The notes under the pieces: model-generated
Databases searched by the model: none
The model's input: only the letters and a program-made list of their open reading frames with translations
Told to the model about the DNA's origin: nothing
Program-made: the position numbers and the translations under genes
Shown: piece by piece, positions 2,001-33,235 of the stretch
How the letters are laid out: the number at the start of each line of letters is the position of its first letter
Position numbering within the stretch: position 1 is the first letter of the stretch
Source: Oscillospiraceae bacterium
GTDB taxonomy: Bacteria > Bacillota > Clostridia > Oscillospirales > CAG-272
Direction: 5' to 3'
DNA: 64,000 bases
Assembly: GCA_015064185.1 (NCBI GenBank)
Contig: SVSS01000002.1
Span: 1 to 64,000 of the forward strand

Positions 2001-2291
2001 ATGGAACAGTATCTTGAACTTATCAGCGTACCCGCTATTGCAGCAGTGGTTTATTGGGTTATTAACCTCATCAAATATACTGTTGGCGATAACGAAACAT
2101 TCAAGCGTTTTATTCCGCTTATCGCAACGGCTCTCGGTATTGTTTGCGGTGTCGTTTGCTTCTTCTTGATTCCGACCATCGTCCCTGCGGACAACGTGCT
2201 TGTGGCTATCGTCATTGGTGGCGCAAGCGGTCTTACGGCAACGGGTACGAATCAGATTATCAAGCAACTCACCAAGAACGATGAGAAGTAA
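2001..2291 (+). CDS. Putative phage holin
   Basis: 96 aa with three hydrophobic segments (VPAIAAVVYWVINLIKY / FIPLIATALGIVCGVVCFFLIPTI / VLVAIVIGGASGLTATG), located after tail genes. Confidence 0.7.
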   Translation: MEQYLELISVPAIAAVVYWVINLIKYTVGDNETFKRFIPLIATALGIVCGVVCFFLIPTIVPADNVLVAIVIGGASGLTATGTNQIIKQLTKNDEK

Positions 2292-2310
2292 AAACTGAAT
2301 AAGCAATATG

Positions 2311-2350
2311 AAGCCTATCTTGGATTTTTCCGAGGTAGGCTTTATTTTTT
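2311..2350 (+). terminator. Rho-independent terminator after holin
   Basis: aagcctatcttgga-tttt-tccgaggtaggctttatttttt hairpin (with G-U pairs) plus T tract. Confidence 0.75.
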
Positions 2351-2406
2351 TGCGTTAAACCTTCACTTTTTCGCTCTGCCGTGGCTTTTAGGTGGAGGTG
2401 GTATAG

Positions 2407-2817
2407 ATGACCAATACAGAAAAAGAACGAATCATAGCCCTTAAAAATCAAGGGATGAGCGTAGGTAAAATAGCGGAAGCCATAGGTATTCCCGCAGGAA
2501 CGATAAAAACATTTTTACGCAGAACGGAAATAAAGCGTAAGGAAAGCACCGAGGGCGTGTGCCTTGAATGTGGTGCAGAGTTGCCCACTGTACCGCATAT
2601 AAAGCCGAGGCGATTTTGCTCCGGGACTTGCCGACAAAAGTGGTGGAACTCGCACCTGCACTTGGTAAAGCGTAAAGCCTTTTATGATTTTATTTGCCCG
2701 TGGTGCGGAAAGAAATTCACGGCTTATGGTAACGACCACAGGGTTTATTGTTCCCGTGATTGCTATGCGGAGGCAAGGAGGAAGAATGGAAAATTACCAG
2801 AACATTTTAATGTATAA
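2407..2817 (+). CDS. HTH plus double zinc-finger DNA-binding protein
   Basis: 136 aa; sigma70-r4-like HTH (MSVGKIAEAIGIPAGTIKTFLRR) then two Cys motifs CLECG...CSGTC and CPWCG...CSRDC; adjacent to recombinases. Confidence 0.65.
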   Translation: MTNTEKERIIALKNQGMSVGKIAEAIGIPAGTIKTFLRRTEIKRKESTEGVCLECGAELPTVPHIKPRRFCSGTCRQKWWNSHLHLVKRKAFYDFICPWCGKKFTAYGNDHRVYCSRDCYAEARRKNGKLPEHFNV

Positions 2818-2950
2818 GCTCGCTATGAGTATGGCGGACGATATGCTAAAACGAGGAATTATCACCCCCGAAGAATACGGGCTTATTGAACAAAAAATGT
2901 GCGAAAAATTCTCTATAAATAGTTCCTCAATTTATCGAAATATGACTTGA
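2786..2950 (+). CDS. Small SHOCT-like protein, overlapping the upstream gene
   Basis: MENYQNILMYKLAMSMADDMLKRGIITPEEYGLIEQKMCEKFSINSSSIYRNMT; ATG at 2786 with aaggaggaag RBS; starts inside the 3' end of the HTH gene. Confidence 0.6.
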   Translation: MENYQNILMYKLAMSMADDMLKRGIITPEEYGLIEQKMCEKFSINSSSIYRNMT

Positions 2951-2999
2951 TATATAACTCTTTTAGAGGTAATATACACATACCAAAAAGGAGGTAAAT

Positions 3000-4295
3000 A
3001 TGCGAGAAATAAAGGACGTTACGCCCGTAAGGGCAACCGAAATCAAACGCCTTCGAGTATGCGCCTACGCACGTGTTTCAAGTGGTAAGGATGCAATGCT
3101 ACACTCGCTTTCAGCACAGGTCAGTTATTATCAAAAAATGATAGCCTCCCACGTGGATTGGAAGTTTTGTGGCATATACGCAGATGAGGCTTTTACGGGA
3201 ACGAAGGAAAACCGAGTGCAGTTTCAAGCTATGCTTGAAGAATGCCGAAAAGGCAATATCGATTTGATTGTTACAAAGTCAATCAGCCGTTTCGCCCGCA
3301 ACACGATTACGCTTTTGCAAACAGTGCGCGAGTTCAAGGCGCTTGGCGTGGATATTTTCTTTGAAGAACAGAACATCCATACCCTTTCCGCAGACGGAGA
3401 GCTTATGCTTACAATCCTTGCATCCTACGCACAGGAAGAGAGCCTTTCCGCAAGCGAAAATGCAAAGTGGCGTATCCGCAAAGGCTTTGAGGCGGGAGAG
3501 CTTATGAACTTCCGATACCTTTTCGGTTACATCATCGTTAAAGGCAAAGTCAGCGTTCACGAAGCCAATGCAACAATAGTGCGTGAGGTGTTTTCAAGGT
3601 TCGTAGACGGCTCGACCTTGGCGGAAATAGCGCATTGGCTTAACGAAAGCGGAGTGCCGCCGATTGAAAGCGGTGAGTGGACGAGCAAAAAACTCCGTGC
3701 TATGCTCCGCAACGAAAAATACACGGGCAACGCACTATTGCAAAAAACATTCAGTAATAACCACCTCGAAAAGAAGAAGAAAATCAACCGAGGAGAGTTG
3801 CCGATGTATTACGTCGAGGACACGCACCCTGCAATCGTGGATTTGACTACCTTTCAGATAGCCAACCAAAAGCTCGATGCCGCCACGGAGTATTACACAT
3901 CTACTACAGAAGCAAGCGAATCACCCTTTTCAAAAAAGATGGTTTGCGGTTACTGCGGTGGGTATGTTAAAAGGGCAAAAAACAATGCCCGCACCATTTG
4001 GCATTGCCACCATTACCTTGAGCGTGGACGTGCCGGGTGCGAAAAGGCAAAGCAAATTCGCAACGATACGCTTGAGGCACTTTGTTGTGAGATTTTCGGT
4101 TGGGACAGTTTCAACGCCGATTTTATTTATAAAAACGTGGCGCAAATCACTGTTTTTGATAGAAATTTGGTGTTTTTAATGACGGACGGCAGAACGATTG
4201 AAAAGAAATGGCAGTACAAATCACGCTCGGCATCGTGGACTCCCGAAATGCGGGAGATTGCAAGGCAGAGGGCGTTAAGACAAAACGGAGGTTAA
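3000..4295 (+). CDS. Large serine recombinase (resolvase + recombinase + zinc ribbon)
   Basis: 431 aa; VCAYARVSS catalytic motif, ITKSISRFARNT, zinc-ribbon CGYCGGYVKRAKNNARTIWHCHHYLERGRAGC. Confidence 0.92.
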   Translation: MREIKDVTPVRATEIKRLRVCAYARVSSGKDAMLHSLSAQVSYYQKMIASHVDWKFCGIYADEAFTGTKENRVQFQAMLEECRKGNIDLIVTKSISRFARNTITLLQTVREFKALGVDIFFEEQNIHTLSADGELMLTILASYAQEESLSASENAKWRIRKGFEAGELMNFRYLFGYIIVKGKVSVHEANATIVREVFSRFVDGSTLAEIAHWLNESGVPPIESGEWTSKKLRAMLRNEKYTGNALLQKTFSNNHLEKKKKINRGELPMYYVEDTHPAIVDLTTFQIANQKLDAATEYYTSTTEASESPFSKKMVCGYCGGYVKRAKNNARTIWHCHHYLERGRAGCEKAKQIRNDTLEALCCEIFGWDSFNADFIYKNVAQITVFDRNLVFLMTDGRTIEKKWQYKSRSASWTPEMREIARQRALRQNGG

Positions 4296-4296
4296 A

Positions 4297-5886
4297 ATGG
4301 CAAAGGTTACAGTTATTCCCGCCACAAGGGATTTTCACACAGGTGTTTCAAAGACAAGTAGGCGCAAACGCAGAGTGGCGGCTTATGCACGTGTTTCCAC
4401 CAATAGCGAAGAGCAAGTTACCTCTTATGAGGCACAGGTGGATTACTACACGAAATACATCCAAAGTCGACCCGATTGGGAGTTTGTCAAGGTTTATACT
4501 GATGAAGGTATAACTGGAACGAACACCAAGCACAGAGACGGCTTTAATGAGATGATTGAGGATGCCCTCGCAGGCAAGATTGACCTTATCATCACAAAGT
4601 CGGTCAGCCGTTTTGCCCGCAATACTGTTGATAGCCTTATCACAGTGCGTAAGCTCAAGGAAAAAGGCATCGAGGTCTACTTTGAAAAGGAAAATATTTA
4701 TACCCTCGATAGCAAGGGCGAGTTGCTTATCACGATTATGAGTTCCTTGGCACAGGAAGAGAGCCGTAGCATTTCGGAAAACATAACGTGGGGCAAGCGT
4801 AAATTCTTCGCAGACGGCAAAGTGTACCTGCCTTATAAATCCTTCCTTGGCTACGAAAAGGGCGAGGATGGGCTTCCCAAGATAGTCCCCGAAGAGGCAA
4901 ACATTATCCGCCTTATTTATTCAATGTTCCTTGACGGCAAAACGCCGTATGCGATAGCAAGCATTCTTACCGAAAGCGGTATTCCCACGCCAAGGCAAAA
5001 GGCGGTGTGGAAAGCAAGCACCATCGAGAGTATTCTTACAAACGAAAAGTATAAAGGCGCAGCCCTTTTGCAGAAAACCTTTACAGTGGATTTCCTTACG
5101 AAAAAGATGAAAACCAACGAGGGCGAAGTGCCTCAATACTATATCGAGGATAGCCACGAACCGATTATTCTGCCGAGAGAGTTCGAGGTAGTGCAAGCGG
5201 AAATGGCAAGGCGCAAAGGTGTCAAAGGCAATTATAGCGGAAACACCATTTTTGCCTCCCGTATTATTTGCGGGGATTGCGGTGAGTTTTTCGGCTCAAA
5301 GGTATGGCACTCTACAGATAAATACCGCAAGGTCATATACAGGTGCAATCATAAATACGCAGATAAAAACCGCCGATGTGAAACACCCCACCTTACAGAG
5401 CAAGAAATCAAAGATGCTTTTATTGCGGTATTTAATACGCTTATGGCGGATAAGGATGCGGTGCTTGATGCCTGCCGTGTGATGCAGGACACGCTGGCGG
5501 ACACCACCGAGATTGATTTCAAGATTGCAAGGTTGCAAGAATCCCAAGAGGATGCGGTAGTTCTTCTGAAAAAGCACGTCGAGGACAATATGCGAGTTTC
5601 CCAAGACCAAGAGGCTTTTTGGAAACGCTACGATGAATATGAAAAACGTGCAAATGACCTCGCAGCCGAGCTTGACGAACTGAAAGTTATCCGCATACAA
5701 CGTTTGCAAGAGGCGGAAATCATAGGCGCATTTATGTTTGAAATCCACGAGCGCGAGGGCGTGATTGAAACCTTTGATGAGAGGCTTTGGAGCGTTTGCG
5801 TGGAAAGCGTAACTGTATATAAAACGGGTGAGATGGTGTTCCGTTTCAAGAATGGAATGGAGATAAAACACCAAAAAAGTAAATAA
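4297..5886 (+). CDS. Large serine recombinase (second of tandem pair)
   Basis: 529 aa; VAAYARVSTNSEEQVTSYEAQ, ITKSVSRFARNT, CGDCGEFFGSK...YRCNHKYADKNRRC zinc ribbon, C-terminal coiled-coil; 1 nt after previous stop. Confidence 0.93.
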   Translation: MAKVTVIPATRDFHTGVSKTSRRKRRVAAYARVSTNSEEQVTSYEAQVDYYTKYIQSRPDWEFVKVYTDEGITGTNTKHRDGFNEMIEDALAGKIDLIITKSVSRFARNTVDSLITVRKLKEKGIEVYFEKENIYTLDSKGELLITIMSSLAQEESRSISENITWGKRKFFADGKVYLPYKSFLGYEKGEDGLPKIVPEEANIIRLIYSMFLDGKTPYAIASILTESGIPTPRQKAVWKASTIESILTNEKYKGAALLQKTFTVDFLTKKMKTNEGEVPQYYIEDSHEPIILPREFEVVQAEMARRKGVKGNYSGNTIFASRIICGDCGEFFGSKVWHSTDKYRKVIYRCNHKYADKNRRCETPHLTEQEIKDAFIAVFNTLMADKDAVLDACRVMQDTLADTTEIDFKIARLQESQEDAVVLLKKHVEDNMRVSQDQEAFWKRYDEYEKRANDLAAELDELKVIRIQRLQEAEIIGAFMFEIHEREGVIETFDERLWSVCVESVTVYKTGEMVFRFKNGMEIKHQKSK

Positions 5887-30369: not shown

Positions 30370-30541
30370 GATAAACTCCGTTCTGTGTGTGGGAGATTTT
30401 AATAGAATTGTTCAAAATGAAATGAAAAGCACACTATGTTCAATGTGATGTTATTTTAACATATTTTTCGTAGAATAACAAGAGGGAAGGCTGCTTTTTT
30501 CAGACCTCGGTGAAAAATTGCAAAAATCGCGGAAGGGGGTA

Positions 30542-30570
30542 TTGACAAGAATTATTTCTTTTGTTATAAT
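30542..30570 (+). promoter_or_regulatory. Sigma-A type promoter for tRNA-Ala
   Basis: TTGACA -17 nt- TATAAT immediately upstream of tRNA. Confidence 0.8.
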
Positions 30571-30584
30571 AACAACGTTAATAA

Positions 30585-30660
30585 GGGGCATTAGCGCAGT
30601 TGGGAGCGCACAACACTGGCAGTGTTGGGGTCAGGGGTTCGAATCCCCTATGCTCCACCA
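30585..30660 (+). tRNA. tRNA-Ala (anticodon GGC), CCA encoded
   Basis: ggggcat-ta-gcgc agttggga gcgc-a-caaca ctGGCag tgttg-gggtc-aggggttcgaatcccct-atgctcc-acca cloverleaf. Confidence 0.95.
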
Positions 30661-30716
30661 ATAGACAAAAAACCGCCTGAAAGGGCGGTTTTTTGTCTAT
30701 TGGTGGAGCATAGGGG
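30645..30716. repeat. 33-bp perfect palindrome spanning tRNA-Ala 3' end and terminator
   Basis: cccctatgctccaccaatagacaaaaaaccgcc (30645-30677) and its exact reverse complement 30684-30716. Confidence 0.95.
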
Positions 30717-30839
30717 TCACTCGACCCCTGTGGAAGATTCCGTTTGAAGCGGAAAGCTTGGCAGTTCTATGGCGAATCTTCAAGCAGCCGCGCAAAGCGC
30801 GCCTGCGGGGTTCGAATCCCCGAGATAGAACGAGCCACC
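30702..30839. repeat. Multi-hairpin intergenic element B with tRNA-like T-arm
   Basis: ggtgg...ccacc ends; gaagattc...gaatcttc, cgcgc-aaa-gcgcg, cggggttcgaatccccg (T-arm sequence), gttctat...atagaac. Confidence 0.65.
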
Positions 30840-30858
30840 CATAAGGGCGGCTTTTTTA

Positions 30859-31503
30859 TTATTTTTCTTCATACCAGCCCTTGGCGCGATTAAGGGCTCT
30901 GTGCCACCCACAAAGCAGCTCTTGGCGCTTAGCGGCGCTCATTTCGGGTGTGTAGCGCGTTTTGGGTGAGAAGAGATGCTTCACATCCTCTAATTTTGCA
31001 TAGCCTACACCTATCGCCGCGGCAAAAGCGGTGCCAAGTGCGGTCGCCTCGGTACAGGAGGGAAGCTCAAGCGGTAAATTTAGGATGTCGGCTTGAAATT
31101 GCATAATAGCTATCGGGGTAAGAGCTGTTCTTGCGCGAAACTGATCGCCATACTGCGCATTAAGCTCCTCAGCGCGCGCGGCAGTGCGCCTATCCTGCCA
31201 AACAATGGCGGGATAGACAGGCTTTCCCGTTTCGGCATCCCATAGGGCAACGCTTTCACCCTCGTGATCGATACCAATGGCAAGGATATCTGCAGGCGAG
31301 GCATTGGCTATCGCCATTGCCTCGGTCACTGCGGCACAGACGGCGTTATAAATATCCGTTGGATCATGCTCGACCCAGCCTGCTTTTGGGTAGGATTGCT
31401 TTATTTCGCAATAACCGCGCGCAACGGGCGCAAAGCTGCGGTCAAACAGAATGGCGGTTGCACCCGTTGTGCCTTGATCGATCCCTAAAAAATATTTGCT
31501 AAT
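30859..31503 (-). pseudogene. glpK: Glycerol-kinase-like (FGGY) gene with large internal in-frame deletion
   Basis: N-terminal YFLGIDQGTTGATAILFDRSF...AGWVEHDPTDIYNAV...AIGIDHEGESVALWDAETGKPVYPAIVWQDRRTA joined directly to C-terminal MQFQADILNLPLELPSCTEATALGTAFAAAIGVGY; no ATG at the N-terminus. Confidence 0.8.
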
Positions 31504-31506
31504 GCC

Positions 31507-32199
31507 TTAAGCCTTGCCGTTTAAGCGCGCAAGGAGCGCAGGCAATTCGCCAAGCGCCTCGATCGTGTGATCGGGCTGCGTGCGATCAGAGGGGAAGGGC
31601 TTTACGTAAGGGATCCACACAGCAGTAAGCCCCGCCAGCTTGGAGCCTTCTACGTCGTTTATGGGATGGTCGCCCACGTACATTGCCTCAGCGGGTGTGA
31701 TGCCCATTTCGCGGCAGATCGTATGATATGCCGAGGCATGCGGCTTGCCCTTGGGCAGCGTGCCGCAAATGATAATTTTATCAAAATAGGGTGCAAGGGG
31801 CGTGTTGTTCAGCTTGTCGTTTTGGCTTTTTTCGCCGCCGTTTGTCAGCATGCCAATCAGATACCCTTGCTCACGCAGCGTTTTGAGCGTTTGGAGCGTG
31901 TCCTTCCAGAGCGTAATGGTGCGTGGCTGGTGGGTTCTGATCACCTTCATGTATTCCTCGTATGTAGGTATCTTCTTAAATACGCCCTTTGCTACCTTTT
32001 CCTTATATACATCGGGCCAGCCAAGGGGATACGCGCCGTCCTTGTCGGCTTGCTTCATGCGTGCAAGCAGCTCCTCATCAGACAGTTCATCATTGATAAA
32101 TTCAGCCATGTCCGCTTTAAAGGGAGCAAACATTTTGGCGTAGCTTGCATCTCTGTCGTATAGGGTATGGTCAAAATCAAAAATTACGGCTTTAATCAT
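31507..32199 (-). CDS. HAD-family hydrolase
   Basis: 230 aa from MIKAVIFDFDHTLYDRDASY; IGMLTNGG, GKPHASAYHTICREMGITPAEAMYVGDHPINDVEGS. Confidence 0.88.
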   Translation of the reverse strand: MIKAVIFDFDHTLYDRDASYAKMFAPFKADMAEFINDELSDEELLARMKQADKDGAYPLGWPDVYKEKVAKGVFKKIPTYEEYMKVIRTHQPRTITLWKDTLQTLKTLREQGYLIGMLTNGGEKSQNDKLNNTPLAPYFDKIIICGTLPKGKPHASAYHTICREMGITPAEAMYVGDHPINDVEGSKLAGLTAVWIPYVKPFPSDRTQPDHTIEALGELPALLARLNGKA

Positions 32200-33235
32200 T
32201 TTCTTGGTTCTCCTTGGTATTTTTGCTTTTTCGCTTGACCCCTGATAGGGGATTGTGTGACATTGCTTCCTGCATGCTGGCGCTGCTGACATGCGTGTAG
32301 ATCTGTGTGGTGTTGAGCTGCTCGTGCCCGAGGATATCCTTTAGCACACGTACATCCACAGCACCTGTTTGGTACATCAGCGTGGCGGCGGTGTGGCGCA
32401 GCTTGTGCACTGATAGGCGGCGCTCTCCAAGCCCTGCCATATCAAGGTATTTGTATACCATCCACTGCACGGTCTTAACGCTGATGCGGTTGTTTTGCCC
32501 GCTTAAAAACAACGCCTTTTCTTTGTCCGATCTGCCGTTTTTCTCGGCAAGTCGGATGGGCAGATATTCGGCAAGCGCCGTTTTGCAGGCTTCGTTTAAA
32601 TAAATGATGCGTTCCTTCGCGCCCTTGCCTGTTACGCGCAGAGACTCTATTTCGCGGTTGATGTCATTCAAATCGATGCCGCATAATTCGGACACACGCA
32701 TGCCGCAGTTGAGAAAGAGCGTGATAATGGTATAATCACGCACCACATTACGGGAATTTTTATCGTTTTTTACGGTGTCAAGCAGTAAAAGTGATTCCTC
32801 AAGAGAGAGAAACTTGGGGAGTGTTTGCTTACGCTTGGGCGATTCGATATCGGCGGCGGGATTGGTATCAAGCTGCTTGGTTTTTGTGACAAGATAGCGG
32901 TAAAACATGCGTATGGAAACCAGCTTTCTTGCCTTGGCCGCCCATAGGTTTTTGCGAACTGACCCTGTGTACTGTAAAAATGAATAGATCTCGGTGGTGC
33001 GGATCGAGCCGATAAATTTGAGGTCAAGGTCGCTGATATCGATTGCCAAAAAATCCTCGCCGTCAAGATCAATGCCATCACGGCTTGCCACCACATAGCG
33101 TAAAAAGGTGCGCAGGTCAAGCAGGTATTCTGAAACGGTTTTTTGCGAGCAGTTTTGTATGCCCGATTTGTATGCTGCAAATTCCTGTACCAAAGGCGGC
33201 AGCTCGCGCATGGGTACTGCATATTGATTTTTCAT
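32192..33235 (-). CDS. Tyrosine recombinase, XerC/XerD-like
   Basis: 347 aa; NCGMRVSELCGIDL, LSVHKLRHTAATLMYQTG, LGHEQLNTTQIYTHV. Confidence 0.92.
   Translation of the reverse strand: MKNQYAVPMRELPPLVQEFAAYKSGIQNCSQKTVSEYLLDLRTFLRYVVASRDGIDLDGEDFLAIDISDLDLKFIGSIRTTEIYSFLQYTGSVRKNLWAAKARKLVSIRMFYRYLVTKTKQLDTNPAADIESPKRKQTLPKFLSLEESLLLLDTVKNDKNSRNVVRDYTIITLFLNCGMRVSELCGIDLNDINREIESLRVTGKGAKERIIYLNEACKTALAEYLPIRLAEKNGRSDKEKALFLSGQNNRISVKTVQWMVYKYLDMAGLGERRLSVHKLRHTAATLMYQTGAVDVRVLKDILGHEQLNTTQIYTHVSSASMQEAMSHNPLSGVKRKSKNTKENQEND

Follow-up and report, generated by a model that had tools for sequence, protein, structure and literature searches.

A perfect palindrome at the 3' end of a clostridial tRNA-Ala gene as the probable left junction of a tRNA-linked repeat

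The 3' end of a tRNA-Ala(GGC) gene in the genome of an Oscillospiraceae gut bacterium lies within a 33-bp perfect palindrome, which probably marks the left-hand junction with a tRNA-linked repeat (TLR); comparison with related units suggests that site-specific recombination in the T-loop lets such repeats spread and be replaced. The units have a common architecture, their ends match the tRNA gene that they follow, they recur within the genus, and they have a counterpart in E. coli. What is new here is a variant of the TLRs, the E. coli repeats themselves being already known. TLRs were first described in 1978, and in E. coli the family comprises 22 genes at ten loci (PMC8144298). By definition they lie directly downstream of a gene in a tRNA or rRNA operon and repeat the last 18-19 bp of that gene at their own 3' end, and their function is so far not known according to the same source (PMC8144298).

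The palindrome and the tRNA-Ala unit

The window analysed is a stretch of 64,000 nucleotides (contig SVSS01000002.1). An earlier note on this DNA had reported a 33-bp perfect palindrome spanning the tRNA-Ala 3' end and its terminator, and the report holds: the arms (30645-30677 and 30684-30716) are complementary at 33 of 33 positions around a 6-nt loop. The palindrome is genuine and well above chance expectation. It is by far the longest in the window, the second-longest having 18-bp arms, and in eight dinucleotide-preserving shuffles of the window the longest palindrome was at most 11 bp. The left arm begins with the last 16 nt of tRNA-Ala (30645-30660), which comprise the 3' strands of both T-stem and acceptor stem together with CCA; what remains of the arm is spacer and terminator stem. 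Beyond the palindrome the mirror goes on imperfectly, with a 7-nt mismatch against the T-loop and then ACCCCTG, which complements the 5' strand of the T-stem.

The downstream side of the tRNA gene adjoins a non-coding unit with the layout T-X'-S-H-X (Table 1). T by itself fits an ordinary intrinsic terminator, but the full stem does not, with 16 nt reaching into tRNA-Ala; at many other tRNAs of the source genome the terminator stem extends 0-3 nt into the tRNA. The tRNA end, T and X' make one long palindrome because X' complements X, X is the tRNA end, and T lies between them. Mirrored ends, which the earlier note had proposed to look for at other tRNA genes of this genome, were found at several of them, where the mirror reaches a variable 6-16 nt into the tRNA.

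Table 1. Features of the tRNA-Ala(GGC) locus (window positions)
Feature	Position	Strand	Basis
tRNA-Ala(GGC)	30585-30660	+	ARAGORN; Rfam RF00005, 64.5 bits
TLR-like non-coding unit, T-X'-S-H-X, ~180 bp	30661-30839	+	sequence layout and homologous units
33-bp perfect palindrome, loop 30678-30683	30645-30716	n/a	palindrome search, shuffles
T, terminator-like hairpin: A-run, G+C stem, U-run 30689-30694	30667-30694	+	sequence
X', last 16 nt of tRNA-Ala in inverted orientation, no mismatch	30701-30716	-	sequence
X' continued, complement of the T-stem 5' strand, past mismatched stretch 30717-30723	30724-30730	-	sequence
S hairpin, 33-nt loop	30733-30781; arms 30733-30740 GAAGATTC / 30774-30781 GAATCTTC	+	compensated arm changes elsewhere
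H hairpin, G+C-rich	30784-30806; arms 30784-30793 / 30797-30806, one mismatch	+	sequence
X, exact 15-nt copy of the tRNA-Ala T-arm GGGGTTCGAATCCCC	30807-30821	+	direct repeat
Second terminator-like hairpin, 3' of X	30834-30857	+	sequence

Identity of X to the tRNA 3' end is limited to the 15-nt T-arm in the window copy and covers 15-20 nt in sister units of the same core family; the acceptor part of the window X (30822-30839) has diverged and is intact in the sister units. The end of the S loop (30763-30773) reads AGTTCTATGGC, a sequence that recurs in a tRNA-Glu unit (L310) and, slightly altered, in Ser units, and that is a possible binding motif. Rfam microRNA matches across the palindrome were set aside as generic long-hairpin hits with scores below the gathering threshold.

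Recurrence within the genus and the counterpart in E. coli

Seven units, the window one among them, were used to build a covariance model (R1) of the part from S to X, and accordingly the window match (30771-30821, 72.3 bits) is that of a training sequence. R1 finds 21 copies, distributed over 8 of the 21 genomes of the genus; the source genome has five, and every copy sits behind a tRNA-Ala, -Lys, -Ser or tmRNA gene in the same sense as that gene. Within a sample of 196 genomes of the family, matches were confined to the source genus. The same layout with other cores is found in the source genome behind His, Leu-CAG, Leu-CAA, Arg-CCG, Arg-ACG, Gly-GCC, Val-CAC, Val-GAC, Gln, Glu, Met and Ser-UGA. 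Units follow at least 12 of the 37 tested tRNA genes of that genome (about 20 by inspection), with one unit at the window locus and one to three elsewhere, inside the TLR range of one to five.

Unit ends fit their own tRNA rather than others, as judged from two sequence comparisons. When a direct copy of a tRNA's own tail is counted at a score of at least 11 within 700 bp of the tRNA, 13 of the 37 tRNAs of the source genome have one, against 12 of 1332 comparisons with the tails of other tRNAs; the 13 become 12 because the Gly-TCC copy probably reflects the neighbouring His unit. Two congeners gave 5/27 (G003) and 9/29 (G015), and genomes of other genera gave 0/31 in the same family (G028) and 0/31 in the same order (G043). 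Likewise, X' matched its own tRNA in 12 of 32 units and other tRNAs in 16 of 948 comparisons. A search for viral carriers returned no hits with the type B pattern, five with the type A pattern (apparently coding DNA, none with a tRNA context or an R1 match), and only weak matches outside Clostridia with an earlier pattern.

The E. coli TLRs (rtT/RttR at tyrT/tyrV, and proK) likewise lie behind a tRNA gene as single or tandem units of 168-178 bp whose 3' end is identical to the tRNA 3' end. The repeats behind tyrV of strain K-12 are 178 bp long and end in the tRNA-Tyr 3' end, and among complete E. coli genomes the number of full 168-bp units at proK ranges from zero to two (L364, L367, L368). 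The tyrV and proK repeats both have an inverted T-arm with a GAGAA loop (GGGGAAGGAT-GAGAA-GCTTCGA and GAGGAT-GAGAA-CCTCC, respectively) ahead of the internal hairpins and X. The Rfam RtT consensus (RF00391) contains the X':X closing helix, and the terminator of proK belongs to the repeated unit. The units described here differ in their host, a Clostridia genus and not an enterobacterium, in having several unrelated core types per genome, and in following a far larger share of the tRNA genes, plus tmRNA. They also differ in that X' extends to the very end of the tRNA, producing a perfect palindrome with the terminator. In a literature search that reached few subscription journals, descriptions of TLRs were found for E. 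coli and its relatives only.

Some observations speak against the TLR reading and the recombination proposed with it. Over the defining 18-19 bp, the window copy is identical to its tRNA in the 15-nt T-arm only. The RF00391 model gave no match in 30400-31000 at E values up to 5 (the positive control, E. coli tyrT/V, scored 133-138 bits), the GAGAA motif is missing from the window copy, and no dedicated recombinase was found.

Folding and turnover of the units

The units fold far better than shuffled sequences (median z -7.8), and in many predicted folds X':X pairing closes a branched structure that encloses S and H. The S arms show compensated variation across units (GAAGATTC, GAAGATGC, GAAGGTGC, GAAAGTTTC, GGAAGCACGC). 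G-U pairs make up 5.7% of the unit helices, compared to 8.6% in the tRNAs of the source genome and 15.9% in shuffles, and G-T pairs are absent from the clearly identified S stems. A motif frequent in units of the genus is GGGG-n-GAGAA followed by a complement of the T-stem; GAGAA itself is present in 17 of 42 units, against 10.6% expected from shuffles.

Relatives differ in the presence, number and type of units. At tRNA-Glu, G003 has an empty site (...CGGGTCACCA|AACGTAACAAATCCG), and the occupied site of G015 has one unit and then ...TCTCCTACGGGTCACCA|AACGTAACAAATCCG, so that in this pair the tRNA 3' end forms a direct repeat of 17 nt. Islander-type islands have a 3' fragment of the target tRNA gene displaced in the same orientation, and both the tRNA-Glu pair and the X copies show one. 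At tRNA-Leu-CAG, G003 has an extra tRNA-proximal unit, followed by X and by the T-X' segment that comes first in G000. At tRNA-Gln(UUG), G000 and G015 carry different unit types with an identical right flank, and Gly-GCC and Arg-CCG are each followed by two units in G000 and by a single one in G015. Finally, one core subtype, with the constant sequence GGTAGAGTTC(A/T)GA, occurs fused to 3' ends specific for Ser, Lys or tmRNA. This combination of a constant core with target-specific ends places the boundary in the T-loop, a position that tyrosine integrases use as one of their crossover subsites within tRNA genes (PMC4383910).

The empty/occupied pair, the turnover of types at one tRNA and the core subtype joined at the T-loop suggest site-specific insertion of the units. 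Deletion between direct repeats could by itself account for the empty site and for the changes in copy number; without movement, it is harder to explain how the same core comes to have target-specific ends.

The units resemble Islander-type tRNA-gene islands (prophages, ICEs and IMEs) in that the target is restored, a 3' fragment is displaced downstream, and the boundary is in the T-arm (PMC4383910). Unlike those islands, the unit is non-coding, has no integrase gene, measures about 180 bp against the Islander minimum of 2 kb, and carries an additional inverted tRNA end. An element of about 4.3 kb with its own tyrosine integrase does occur in the tRNA-Ala gene of another genome (L068; G018:C20:4000-14000), and its right end is marked by a displaced 3' fragment of the tRNA.

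No dedicated recombinase for the units was found in the source genome, whose two tyrosine recombinases are not linked to units and do not exceed the integron-integrase cut-off. One of the two, XerC/XerD-like but below equivalog cut-offs, is encoded in the window at 32192-33235 on the minus strand, 1.5 kb from the unit. The other (L200) was rejected as a required factor: it was not found in five unit-bearing genomes (G010, G013, G017, G019 and G020) and is present in genomes of other genera. Restriction-modification genes have been observed at two unit loci. Behind tRNA-Ser(GGA) of the source genome, an 855-aa fused N6-methylase/specificity protein (MAD2/MAD5-like, below cut-off) is encoded between two TLR-like units (L064; G000:C16:46000-54000, ORF 2268-4835), and the same site in G015 is without it. 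In G015, a 3.3-kb cassette with an HpyAIV-type endonuclease and a CcrM-like methyltransferase lies between tRNA-Ala and a truncated TLR-like unit (L023; G015:C35:10400-14600).

Origin of the units

The favoured account of how the units arrive is that a trans-acting enzyme, probably a tyrosine recombinase, inserts them in the T-loop. The incoming unit would bring its own terminator, T, ahead of X', so that the tRNA transcript could still end properly. Insertion would displace the original 3' end of the tRNA gene to the downstream side, where it would become X; X' would pair with X, closing the fold of the unit around S and H. Tandem copy number would then change through recombination between direct repeats, and repeated insertion of this kind would let units spread and be replaced. 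The earlier suggestion of a tRNA-end duplication came close, in that the unit contains the tRNA 3' end twice, once inverted (X') and once direct (X). The suggestion of a footprint of integration by inversion survives in its first part, as the units look site-specifically inserted; inversion is not needed, because X' belongs to the repeat's own fold.

The strongest competitor is a passive origin, in which a tRNA 3' end and its terminator were duplicated in tandem and a hairpin-templated (quasipalindrome) mutation copied the end into X', with no site-specific mobility. We give it a real but minor chance. Copy number changes by whole units at Gly-GCC, Arg-CCG and E. coli proK, as recombination between direct repeats would give, and the varying depth of the mirror fits as well. 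However, such an origin leaves unexplained why one core subtype occurs at three target genes with target-specific 3' ends, why unrelated unit types follow the same tRNA, and why a conserved non-complementary stretch separates the two complementary parts of X'.

It is rather unlikely that the units exist for an RNA-level function, as small RNAs or as processing elements in which X' and X compete for the tRNA end in read-through transcripts. In favour of such a function are the strong, compensated folding noted above and the rrn TLRs of E. coli, for which evidence of transcription and of binding to Hfq and CsrA has been presented (PMC8144298). Against this, the terminator stands before the unit, a CsrA-binding signal is not reported for TLRs in tRNA operons (PMC8144298), and close relatives have no unit behind the same tRNA. 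The processing control proposed in the earlier note finds no support either: the terminator's U-run lies ahead of X', so the mirrored strand would presumably be missing from a pre-tRNA that ends normally, and a direct effect of the palindrome on tRNA processing is unlikely on these grounds.

A more speculative reading, to which we assign little probability, holds that the units are integron-like hairpin cassettes in tRNA genes, the folded single strand (X-T-X' or X'-S-H-X) mimicking a double-stranded attachment site. The insertion step that goes with it, in which a host Xer-type recombinase would place the folded strand with its unpaired T-loop beside the tRNA, seems just as doubtful. The units do share with integron attC arrays and CALINs their tandem imperfect hairpins, variable loops, paired boxes split by an unpaired spacer (here the T-loop stretch) and occasional cargo, and the restriction-modification cargo lies in integrase-free arrays. 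The new unit in the one Leu-CAG comparison is beside the tRNA, and there are few recombinases other than Xer types. In contrast to attC arrays and CALINs, the units have no integron integrase or attI, occur on many tRNA genes and are usually free of cargo; no enzyme is tied to them, and the single-strand recombination step is hypothetical. If this reading were true, TLRs would be hairpin cassettes that occasionally carry cargo such as restriction-modification genes.

Reverse transcription primed by a tRNA was also considered, given that X' resembles a primer-binding site. An assembly artefact (a foldback chimera), which the earlier note had named as the finding that would undo its claim and which a perfect 33-bp mirror in a metagenome-assembled genome might bring to mind, is very improbable: the same layout stands at tRNA-Ser(UGA) of the source genome, relatives that were assembled independently have it with different spacer sequences at Ala, tmRNA, Lys and Ser, the mirror gives way to unique sequence, and complete E. 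coli genomes hold a counterpart.

In the source genus, TLRs follow a large fraction of the tRNA genes, one site is also seen empty, different targets share core subtypes, and turnover is fast, so that comparative analysis can now test where TLRs come from. The GAGAA-containing inverted T-arm, present both in a Clostridia genus and in E. coli, hints at one widespread class. Palindromes at tRNA ends, and tRNA fragments near tRNA genes, are not necessarily assembly artefacts or prophage att sites.
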